Positions 9,165 through 25,324 of a stretch of 25,799 nucleotides of DNA are shown here, one piece after another. The notes beneath the pieces are model-generated. The model was not told where the DNA came from. It saw nothing but the letters and a program-made list of their open reading frames with translations, and made no database searches. How positions within the stretch are numbered: the first letter of the stretch is position 1; each line of letters starts with the position of its first letter. Origin of the DNA: a virus; IMG/VR virus record IMGVR_UViG_3300010389_000115, positions 1 to 25,799 of that record, one strand, 5' to 3'. A program made the translations under genes and the position numbers.

Positions 9165-9506
9165 ATGCCCGTTCCTGTACGCGCGATCGACCGCCTCCGC
9201 AAGGCCGCCAACCTGGAGCCAGTCAAGAAAAAAGTAGAGCTGTCCGACGGCAGCACATTTGAAATGTGGGTAGCACCACTGACAATGGCCGAGCGTGAAC
9301 GCGCCCAAAAACAAGCCAAGTCCGACGATGCAAACGCTTTTGCACTCCAGCTGCTGATCGCCAAAGCCCTTGACGAATCCGGCGCCAAGCTGTTCAGCGT
9401 TGGCGAGGTGGATGTGCTGAAGAACGAAGTAAAGGACAAGGACTTGCAGGCATTGATGCTGGCAATCCTGACCGACGACGCCGAGCCCATCGACCCAAAA
9501 TCCTAA
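9165..9506 (+). CDS. Tail assembly chaperone, short form (gpG-like)
   Basis: This encodes 113 residues. The sequence has basic and helical segments (AIDRLRKAANLEPVKKKVEL, then MTMAERERAQ-like LTMAERERAQKQAKSDDANA), an acidic stretch and the end AILTDDAEPIDPKS. The gene lies between the major tail protein and tape measure, the fixed position of tail assembly chaperones that wrap the tape measure before tube polymerisation. Three codons before its stop is the heptamer C CCA AAA, at which ribosomes can slip back to make the long form. No Shine-Dalgarno is visible. Confidence 0.85.
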   Translation: MPVPVRAIDRLRKAANLEPVKKKVELSDGSTFEMWVAPLTMAERERAQKQAKSDDANAFALQLLIAKALDESGAKLFSVGEVDVLKNEVKDKDLQALMLAILTDDAEPIDPKS

Positions 9507-9691
9507 GCGCCGAACTCCGCAAGGACAACTGGCTCATGCTCCAGTTTGGCGTCGCCAAGGAGCTGGGTCTAACCCTTACCGAAGTTCGGACAACAATGAC
9601 CGCCGAGGAGTTGCTCGGCTGGAGCGCCTACTTCCAGATCCTTAACGAGGACCAGCAGAAGGAACTGGAAAAAGCCAAACGCCGCCGCTAG
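9165..9691 (+). CDS. Tail assembly chaperone, -1 frameshift form (gpGT-like)
   Basis: The first 112 codons are shared with the short form. A -1 shift at C CCA AAA (9494-9500) continues in the frame from 9500 and adds 63 residues, starting ILSAELRKDNWLMLQFGVAK and ending KRRR before TAG 9689-9691, total 175 residues. The extension contains MTAEELLGWSAYFQI, the sort of sequence found in the T part of siphovirus GT proteins. The extension frame has coding-like composition and no start codon at its beginning. In lambda the GT form binds the tape measure and recruits the tube protein. The stop codon falls inside the following terminator hairpin. Confidence 0.85.
9494..9500 (+). other. Programmed -1 frameshift heptamer CCCAAAA
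   Basis: This fits X XXY YYZ in the reading frame: C from GAC, then CCA and AAA. The zero-frame stop TAA follows at 9504-9506. This placement and the downstream open frame match the frameshift sites of phage tail chaperone genes. Confidence 0.85.
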
Positions 9692-22996: not shown

Positions 22997-23248
22997 ATGG
23001 AGCACCACGAAGAGGCGCTAATTACAGCTAAACCGCCCGAAAGTCCGTTCAACCAAATGATTCCGGCTCTGCTGACCGCTGCGGTGGTTGGTTTAGCCGG
23101 TCTTTTTATGCAAGTCGCCAAGCTCGATCAATCCGTCAGCACTGTTGCCGCCGACATCCAGGAACTCAAGAACGACTCAAAAGAAAGGCTTAGTGATCTC
23201 GAAACCAGAGTGCGCCAGATTGAGATGCGCGTCGGCCACAACAAATGA
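22997..23248 (+). CDS. Holin-like membrane protein with coiled coil
   Basis: This encodes 83 residues. The first 20 residues are polar, residues 21-41 (MIPALLTAAVVGLAGLFMQV) form one transmembrane helix, and residues 43-80 are a charged coiled coil (IQELKNDSKERLSDLETRVR). One membrane helix plus a coiled coil is a common layout for small phage lysis proteins, including class III-like holins and XhlA-type proteins. Location upstream of the endolysin supports a lysis role. A spanin is less likely because no lipobox is present. It overlaps the next gene in ATGA. Confidence 0.6.
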   Translation: MEHHEEALITAKPPESPFNQMIPALLTAAVVGLAGLFMQVAKLDQSVSTVAADIQELKNDSKERLSDLETRVRQIEMRVGHNK

Positions 23249-23430
23249 GCGTCGTACACACCACTGACTACGGCAACGGTTACACCCTGGACCAGCTGGA
23301 GAACGAACGCGGCGAGCTGTACTACCGCGCCTGCAAGAACAGCATCTGCCGTTACGCCGAGGACCACTACATCGCGGTGATGTACCTCGAAGAAATGGGC
23401 TGGGACCCTAAGCAACAAGCCCCTCAGTAA
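23245..23430 (+). CDS. Hypothetical 61-residue phage protein
   Basis: The start lies in the ATGA overlap with the holin-like gene. It reads MSVVHTTDYGNGYTLDQLEN, then YYRACKNSICRYAEDHYIAV. There are two cysteines (C-K-N-S-I-C) but not enough for a zinc site alone, and no membrane helix. Its last 23 bases overlap the end of the minus-strand HNH gene. Short, acidic and aromatic-rich; function not recognised. Confidence 0.6.
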   Translation: MSVVHTTDYGNGYTLDQLENERGELYYRACKNSICRYAEDHYIAVMYLEEMGWDPKQQAPQ

Positions 23431-23728
23431 TCCAGCGGATGATCGCATCCTCCCGGTGCGGCTCCCAAAACGGCTGGTCCCTGTACCACTCCAGCCAATC
23501 CTCCGCCGACTTCGAGATATTGCAGCCAAAGCAGCAGGCCACCAAATTCTGCTGGTGCGTATGCCCACCACGAAATTTCGGATGGACGTGATCGAGGGTT
23601 GCAGATCGCCCCAGATCTACCCCGCAATAGGCGCAGGAATTATTCCAGTGGTTAAGGATTGATTGCCTAAATCGCGCCTTTGCTTCTTTTTTGTTTAAGT
23701 ATTCGCCATCCTCAATGCGATGGTCCAT
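23408..23728 (-). CDS. HNH endonuclease
   Basis: This encodes 106 residues on the minus strand in a plus-strand region. CAYC and CFGC provide the zinc-binding pairs. Between them LDHVHPKFRGGHTHQQNLVA gives the His and Asn of the HNH motif, and CNISK ends it. Compact enzymes of this type are free-standing homing-like nucleases or packaging-associated nickases. Most packaging HNH genes lie beside terminase, while this one is in the lysis region on the other strand, which favours a mobile or moron-type gene. Its 3' end overlaps the preceding plus-strand gene by 23 bases. Confidence 0.88.
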   Translation of the reverse strand: MDHRIEDGEYLNKKEAKARFRQSILNHWNNSCAYCGVDLGRSATLDHVHPKFRGGHTHQQNLVACCFGCNISKSAEDWLEWYRDQPFWEPHREDAIIRWITEGLVA

Positions 23729-23827: not shown

Positions 23828-23968
23828 ATGGACTTCATCCAACATCCAGCCTTCTGGATCATCGTTGCGGCAGCTTCCGAGCTGATCGCCCTTTCCCCGC
23901 TAAAGGACAACAGCATCATCCAGCTGGTGTTCCACGCCCTCCGCGCTGTAAAGGGAAAAAAGCTCTGA
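23828..23968 (+). CDS. 46-residue membrane protein, zero-frame product
   Basis: The start is ATG 23828. It reads MDFIQHPAFWIIVAAASELI, then ALSPLKDNSIIQLVFHALRA and VKGKKL. Residues 8-23 form a hydrophobic helix, and the later NSIIQLVFHALRAV is amphipathic. A short protein of this kind, with the core SPLKDNSIIQLV, seems familiar from cyanophage late regions. It lies two genes after the holin-like protein and before the endolysin, so it may take part in lysis. Its last sense codons contain the heptamer A AAA AAG followed by CTC and TGA, a -1 frameshift context (see the extended product). Confidence 0.65.
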   Translation: MDFIQHPAFWIIVAAASELIALSPLKDNSIIQLVFHALRAVKGKKL

Positions 23969-24225
23969 TTGCTTTCGGCAAGCCGGGCTGGCAACGCCGG
24001 CTCGAACAAGCCATCCGCCAATGGTGGTTCGAGCTGACACTGCCCGGCAAGCTGGACAAAGCTGAAGCGGACTGGCACGCAACCCAACCGACCGATCCAC
24101 TTCCCGTGATCGTTCACCACGAAATTGATGAACAGCTCCAAACCGGCGAAAGCCGCCTTCTGGGTGGCGCCATGAGTATCTCCGCCCCTTGGTCCGATGC
24201 CCAGCAACAAGATCCGCCTGAGTGA
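23828..24225 (+). CDS. Candidate -1 frameshift product of the membrane gene (132 residues)
   Basis: After codon 45 a -1 shift at A AAA AAG (23956-23962) enters a frame open until TGA 24223-24225 and adds 87 residues: ALIAFGKPGWQRRLEQAIRQ, WWFELTLPGKLDKAEADWHA, then a Pro and acidic tail. The added frame has coding-like composition, but from the last upstream stop (TAA 23800) it has no ATG, GTG or TTG start for about 95 codons. Independent translation would need an ATT at 23968 (in TGATT) or a CTG. The extension is amphipathic near its start and polar later. It overlaps the endolysin start by 29 bases. No family known to me. Confidence 0.6.
23956..23962 (+). other. Candidate -1 frameshift heptamer AAAAAAG
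   Basis: Read as A AAA AAG in the zero frame, the same heptamer as the E. coli dnaX shift site. The zero-frame TGA follows one codon later (23966). Possible downstream hairpins are GCTT/AAGC (23971-23983) and AGCCGG/CCGGCT (23981-24002). Confidence 0.6.
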
Positions 24226-25324
24226 CCTGTTTCGGTATTACAAGGGTTTGCCTCATCAAATGGCGGCAATCACCGAGCTGGAACAAGCCATCAACAAGGC
24301 CAACCCCCACATATTGGGCCGCGACCAAGGCTGGTTCAAAACCTGGAGCGTTGCCGGCAAACAGACCCAATTCCCAAACAGCTGGGAAGGCATCCTCGAA
24401 GCCGCCCGAGTTGCTGGCGCAAAATTCCCGGAACTCGTAGCCGCCCAGTGGGCACTCGAATCAAATTACGGCAAATTAGTATCTGGCAGAAACAACTTTT
24501 TCGGCCTCAAAGGTGAAGGCAGCGACAAGAAAACGCAAGAATTTATTAACGGCCAGTGGATCACGATCACGGACAGCTTCATTGATTTCCCTGACTTACT
24601 ATCCTGTGTAATTTATTTGGTTGATCACTGGTACAAAGATTACAAAAACTATAAAGGTTGTAATAACGCTGCAACCCGCGAAGAAGCTGCCAAGTGGTTG
24701 CATAAGGAAGGCTACGCAACTGATCCCAACTATCCCGGCAAATTGATCCAGCTGATGGAACAACACGCGGGAGCTAAACCCACCGTTCCGCCTGGCCAAA
24801 AGCTATTAAAAGTTCCCTACGAGTACCAGCTGGGTCCTGACGATGGGGCTACCGGCTATCGCCAGTGCTTTAGTTCTAGTTGTGCAATGGTGGCCCGCTA
24901 TTACGGCAAGATCTCGGGCGACTACGAGTACAACAAACTCCGCGCCAGATTCGGCGACACTACCGACCCAAAAGCACAAATTGCAGCCCTCAAAGCACTG
25001 GGACTAAACGCCACCTTCGAGATGGATGGCACAGTCGAGGACTTGGAGACCGAAATAGCTAATGGCTATCCGGTTCCTGTTGGCTGGCTCCACAAAGGTC
25101 CCGTGTCTAACCCCAGCGGCACCGGCCACTGGAGCGTCGTGGTGGGATATACGCCAACGCACTTCATCCACAACGACCCGTTCGGCGAAGCAAATCTGCT
25201 GAACGGCGGCTACGTGAGCAACAAGGGGGGAGCGGGCATCGCCTACTCCAGAAAGAACTGGCTGCCTCGCTGGCTCATCGAAGGCAACGACACCGGCTGG
25301 TTCTTCCGCATCCGCCGAGGTTAG
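24197..25324 (+). CDS. Two-domain endolysin (glucosaminidase plus C39-like peptidase)
   Basis: This encodes 375 residues with no signal peptide. Residues about 60-190 match a GH73-type N-acetylglucosaminidase: FPELVAAQWALESNYGK holds the candidate catalytic Glu88, followed by NNFFGLKG and later DLLSCVIYLVDHWY. A short linker (AKPTVPPGQ) follows. Residues about 205-375 match a C39-like cysteine peptidase: VPYEYQLG, YRQCFSSSCAMVARYYG (Cys224 or Cys229), GHWSVVVGY (His311) and IHNDPFG (Asp327). The enzyme would cut both glycan and peptide bonds of the host wall at the end of infection, reaching it through a holin. The start overlaps the frameshift extension upstream. Confidence 0.85.
   Translation: MPSNKIRLSDLFRYYKGLPHQMAAITELEQAINKANPHILGRDQGWFKTWSVAGKQTQFPNSWEGILEAARVAGAKFPELVAAQWALESNYGKLVSGRNNFFGLKGEGSDKKTQEFINGQWITITDSFIDFPDLLSCVIYLVDHWYKDYKNYKGCNNAATREEAAKWLHKEGYATDPNYPGKLIQLMEQHAGAKPTVPPGQKLLKVPYEYQLGPDDGATGYRQCFSSSCAMVARYYGKISGDYEYNKLRARFGDTTDPKAQIAALKALGLNATFEMDGTVEDLETEIANGYPVPVGWLHKGPVSNPSGTGHWSVVVGYTPTHFIHNDPFGEANLLNGGYVSNKGGAGIAYSRKNWLPRWLIEGNDTGWFFRIRRG

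Follow-up and report, generated by a model that had tools for sequence, protein, structure and literature searches.

The window, i.e., the whole stretch of viral DNA that was analysed (25,799 nucleotides, IMG/VR record IMGVR_UViG_3300010389_000115), carries beside its endolysin gene a 46-codon gene for a small, predicted membrane protein in which a programmed −1 ribosomal frameshift is almost certainly used, an inference made without protein or ribosome-profiling data. The arrangement of the reading frames and its conservation have been shown by comparison of related viral sequences, and it is very likely that the frameshift gives two products of 46 and 132 residues, an estimate from which any step in lysis is excluded. 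According to the mechanism proposed here, most ribosomes would stop at TGA 23966 and release a 46-residue, two-helix membrane protein, and a fraction of them would slip back by one base at the heptamer A AAA AAG, a step in which a downstream RNA structure probably helps, thereby yielding a 132-residue protein that combines the same membrane part with an 87-residue, probably cytoplasmic, domain.

Reading Frames and Features of the Locus

The features of the locus are as follows:

22997–23248, + strand: protein of 83 aa containing a membrane helix and a coiled coil, an XhlA-like or spanin-like neighbour
23408–23728, − strand: HNH endonuclease gene, flanked by the Xhl-like and frameshift genes
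23828–23968, + strand: 0-frame gene of a small, predicted membrane protein of 46 aa with two helices predicted at 7–22 and 27–42; phrog_22542, unknown function
23956–23962, + strand: slippery heptamer A AAA AAG, in the correct phase with the 0 frame
23962–24225, + strand: −1 frame extension, 87 codons and a stop; predicted as a long helix that precedes a C-terminal stretch containing LQTGESRLLGGAMSISAPW
23966–23968, + strand: 0-frame stop TGA, one codon past the heptamer
23974–24056, + strand: predicted RNA hairpin, possible frameshift stimulator (fold −44.7 kcal/mol, z −3.68)
24197–25324, + strand: endolysin with glucosaminidase and C39-like peptidase domains, start ATG 24197

The product of ORF 23828–23968 is MDFIQHPAFWIIVAAASELIALSPLKDNSIIQLVFHALRAVKGKKL. 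The 3′ end of this gene reads GGA AAA AAG CTC TGA, in which the first-pass annotation had recognised an in-phase A AAA AAG; its position at 23956–23962 is confirmed, and the likely genes of the window, which total 8,157 codons, contain no second in-phase copy of it. The −1 frame opens about 54 codons 5′ of the 0-frame stop and closes at TGA 24223–24225, giving a predicted fusion of 45 + 87 = 132 residues. The same annotation had described 87 further codons reaching up to the endolysin start; the length stands, but the end point does not, since the 3′ end of the extension runs past ATG 24197 and overlaps the 5′ end of the endolysin gene by 29 nt. It had also been right that the −1 frame has no early ATG, GTG or TTG: the first of these is GTG 24106–24108, from which only about 39 of the 87 residues would be made, and the sole ATG of the frame lies at about 24173, within MSISAPW.

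Conservation of the Heptamer among Relatives

Relatives were gathered by scans of IMG/VR, which gave 210 distinct loci in 138 clusters, and clusters without an extension were assigned by eye from the translations of the −1 frame. The extension is present in 125 of the 138 clusters, and an in-phase X XXY YYZ heptamer stands at the junction in 124 of these 125 (A AAA AAG in 122 clusters, A AAA AAC in 1 and G GGA AAG in 1). None of the 13 extension-less clusters has a heptamer, even where the same Lys-Lys is encoded; for example, podoviruses related to AP013546, which lack the extension, write Pro-Lys-Lys as CCA AAG AAA or CCA AAG AAG, and in L322, L362 and L363 the membrane gene runs straight into an overlapping endolysin start. 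That is to say, the heptamer is kept among relatives and absent where the extension is absent, and the check on its conservation put forward by the first-pass annotation was passed, as was its expectation that homologues of the extension would always lie behind a conserved heptamer (124 of 125 clusters). The −1 frameshift with 46- and 132-residue products, as proposed in that annotation, is thus strongly supported by comparative evidence, in the absence of expression data.

The nearest isolates are Synechococcus phages, among them S-CBS3, whose membrane part is 91% identical and whose extension is 64% identical. A AAA AAG is kept at the junctions of S-CBS3 (AAA AAG CTC TAG), S-CBS1 (AAA AAG GAC TGA), KBS-S-2A (AAA AAG AGC TGA), and S-B28 and WH11-B (both AAA AAG TAA). 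The junction of S-EIVl reads CCG GGA AAG CGC TGA, i.e., G GGA AAG, the heptamer of lambda G/GT. In L317 and L344, which form the one A AAA AAC cluster, the change replaces Lys with Asn, and a heptamer is still kept; L377 is a further A AAA AAC member. The exceptions are L330 (A AAG AAG in place of the heptamer), L020 (GGG AAA AAG, i.e., G AAA AAG), L215 (heptamer followed at once by a TAG in the −1 frame) and L302 (just 18 codons of the extension remaining).

The codon 5′ of the heptamer is GGA, GCA, CCA, TCA, ACA, GAA, GTA or CAA, which encode eight amino acids and all have A as the third base, against a background A-ending fraction of 15–56% for the codons of these amino acids; a probability multiplied from these fractions ignores shared ancestry and cannot be used as a P-value. 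No in-frame fusion of the membrane part and the extension was found among the 210 loci analysed. In GenBank, the extension is started at internal codons in S-CBS3 (gp22) and S-CBS1 (gp23), and is omitted altogether in KBS-S-2A and S-B28.

Coding Evidence for the Extension

Of the complete −1 frames that follow a heptamer, all 159 stay open for 47–94 codons beyond the 0-frame stop, and 154 of them have a [SAT]P[WFY] motif close to the end. In relatives, the −1 frame has a median dN/dS of 0.12, whereas the other frames give 1.3 and 2.1; judged by this ratio, the extension is under purifying selection.

RNA Structure and tRNA Supply

Compared with codon-preserving shuffles, the downstream RNA of 123 sequences has excess stability at +5 to +84 (mean z −2.12, s.e. 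0.15), which is seen in every subfamily; at +100 to +179 it is near background (z −0.36). The hairpin predicted in the window is 83 nt long and starts 11 nt past the heptamer. No single RNA fold common to all members was found, the subfamilies folding differently, and no significant Rfam match was obtained. Because the two best-aligned subfamilies offer only modest covariation and few compensatory changes, a specific stimulatory fold downstream of the heptamer is plausible but not proven. A search upstream of the heptamer gave no Shine-Dalgarno-like stimulator at the usual spacing.

The host of the window's phage is not known, and tRNA genes were counted in one Cyanobium genome, which is fragmented (36 tRNA places) and contains a single tRNA-Lys with anticodon UUU and none with CUU. 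In E. coli, the presence of tRNA-Lys(UUU) without CUU is the condition that makes A AAA AAG highly shift-prone (PMC5009743). With the phage host unidentified, the sole tRNA-Lys(UUU) of the Cyanobium genome favours slippage on AAG.

The Membrane Part and the Extension

The short form has two predicted helices of 16 residues each (7–22 and 27–42) and a hydropathy maximum of 1.67 over 19 residues, which is consistent with membrane insertion, although no dedicated topology predictor was used; polar residues (Ser-Glu, Asn-Ser and Gln) are conserved in and between these helices. In the search for a known holin family, the only matches were phrog_22542, phrog_15106 and phrog_13924, all of unknown function. 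Pfam gave no match for either the membrane part or the extension, and neither part matches a named holin family in the library scans. Structure prediction was carried out separately for the extension and the short form, and the 132-aa fusion was not modelled as a whole; in the model of the extension, a long helix leads into a tail that has short strands, at low global confidence (pTM 0.31). Outside this group, similarity to the membrane part was found (FLAAALAISEIIALTPLKSNSIFQLLFNILKRKEGS, E 5e-3) for an unannotated ORF at 2001–2117 of L009 (MH572431, Microviridae from Ciona gut), which has neither extension nor heptamer.

Distant homologues of the C-terminal part occur in cyanomyoviruses as standalone proteins with their own start codon (T4-GC 410, phrog_6464), at loci where no 46-aa membrane part was seen. 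They share with some extensions the motif ETGxFGEDGWSISxxxP with small variations, its ETGxFGEDGWSIS portion included, and a profile comparison of the whole extension family with them gave a probability of 67%, which is suggestive only. In L379 (4001–4084 and downstream), a Cyanobium contig and apparently a prophage, there is a membrane gene with a homologue of the extension, whose start GTG overlaps the upstream stop; in this contig, the extension appears to be translated from that GTG. No relatives of the Cyanobium extension were found by search in viral contigs. The homologues with their own start that the first-pass annotation had counted as evidence against a frameshift therefore do exist, but only as these distant cyanomyovirus proteins and the one Cyanobium copy; the standalone homologues of both kinds indicate that the C-terminal domain can exist as its own gene. 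In addition, small standalone proteins with the FGEDGWSIS motif and of unknown function are found in marine phages L427–L466 and L368–L372.

Alternative Routes to the Extension

Since the C-terminal domain stands alone in cyanomyoviruses and the Cyanobium homologue has a GTG overlapping the stop, the extension could be supposed to be a separate protein, made by reinitiation or from a non-AUG start (CTG 23965 or ATT 23968) coupled to termination at TGA. This is very unlikely for the phage gene. In 112 of the 125 clusters the stretch through codon 5 past the junction is free of ATG, GTG and TTG, and the junction codon itself is variable (CTG in 76 clusters, CTA in 31, GTA in 9, TTA in 5 and TTG in 4). 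Because it varies across relatives, initiation at ATT 23968 or CTG 23965, or at any conserved non-AUG start, would be unlikely; moreover, reinitiation needs neither a heptamer nor a fixed A before it. An own start for the extension was therefore rejected on the scarcity of start codons and the variation of the junction.

The six consecutive A that most members carry might instead cause RNA polymerase slippage, with mRNAs of altered length encoding the fusion. Six A is short for such slippage, the X XXY YYZ phase is preserved, and the G GGA AAG member has just three A, so this reading is still harder to believe, and transcriptional slippage was rejected by means of that member (S-EIVl). As for chance, namely an open alternative frame with a coincidental A-rich end, nothing beyond the gene's small size speaks for it; it is contradicted by conservation, codon choice and dN/dS, and can be regarded as negligible.

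Genomic Neighbourhood and a Possible Role in Lysis

The criterion for a location in the lysis cassette, an endolysin homologue at most 1 kb downstream, was met in 96 of 111 clusters, and a TerS homologue was found there in 8. An Xhl-like gene lies upstream in 92 of 100 clusters, genes related to the protein at 22997–23248 being kept upstream in relatives. In S-B28 the order is tail fibre, Xhl-like gene, frameshift gene and TerS; this matches the position of the T7 holin, at which T7-like relatives carry the frameshift gene. Apart from this question, the endolysins of the window (24197–24310) and of its relatives share an N-terminal segment, IRLxDLFRYYKxLxHQxAAIxELE, before the catalytic domains.

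From synteny alone, with no lysis data, it is about an even question whether the protein pair acts in lysis in a holin-like manner. If it does, the pair would most likely be a holin-like protein and a scarcer, C-terminally extended partner, which is inferred to tune membrane disruption or to couple it to another protein. It is also possible, though rather doubtful, that the frameshift is real and the pair is not a lysis factor but serves, say, as a virion or host-takeover protein that is anchored in the membrane and merely happens to be encoded beside the endolysin; such a reading differs in function alone and leaves the frameshift untouched. The lack of a holin family match agrees with such a protein, a simple hole former would not usually have conserved polar residues such as the S, E, N, S and Q that lie in and between the helices, and in the stretches viewed the C-terminal domain of cyanomyoviruses lies away from any endolysin. 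On the other side, the downstream endolysin or TerS, which matches the T7 holin location, and the preceding Xhl-like gene weigh against a role outside lysis. In its widest form, the holin-like reading supposes a lysis system widespread among cyanophages whose holin function is under the control of a frameshift-made, C-terminally extended isoform, produced at a set ratio and with a cytoplasmic domain related to a separate gene of other marine phages; this is put forward only tentatively.

Comparison with Known Systems

The dnaX gene of E. coli has the same A AAA AAG and likewise yields from one gene a short product and one of different length; the phage gene differs from it in that the shifted product is the longer one, that there is no upstream Shine-Dalgarno-like stimulator, and that a small membrane protein is encoded. 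The tail assembly chaperones of the lambda G/GT type resemble the phage gene in a −1 shift close to where a short ORF ends, a startless extension and dual products, whereas the phage gene lies outside the tail region, as a small membrane protein gene beside the endolysin. The window also has, at the tail chaperone position (9165–9691), an ORF 9165–9506 ending GAC CCA AAA TCC TAA with an in-phase C CCA AAA, and its −1 frame is open into ORF 9536–9691; this is probably the usual G/GT-type frameshift.

As in lambda S105/S107 and SPP1 gp26/26*, one membrane gene of the lysis region would give two forms. Dual-start holins show by precedent that one membrane protein can be made in two forms (PMC6316719), but theirs differ at the N-terminus through a second start codon, whereas those of the phage gene would differ at the C-terminus through frameshifting, and their lysis activity is untested. 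PBSX and SPP1 have two-component Xhl holins (PMC6316719); XhlA/XhlB of PBSX and gp24.1/gp26 of SPP1 are likewise two small membrane proteins adjoining the endolysin, but no frameshifted extension has been described for them, and they gave no match to the phage gene in library scans.

Significance of the Finding

Most of the well-known conserved frameshifts of phages concern tail chaperone and capsid genes. For this small membrane gene, no report of a frameshift was found in the open literature, subscription journals being largely outside the coverage. The natural controls are on hand, namely A AAA AAC, G GGA AAG and extension-less members, and the construct is short and easily tested. Recognition of the frameshift would correct a systematic mis-annotation, in which GenBank records begin the extension internally or omit it. 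A conserved frameshift that acts on a small membrane gene in the lysis region would be a new means of obtaining two forms of a protein from that region, and its conservation extends over sipho- and podovirus relatives infecting picocyanobacteria.
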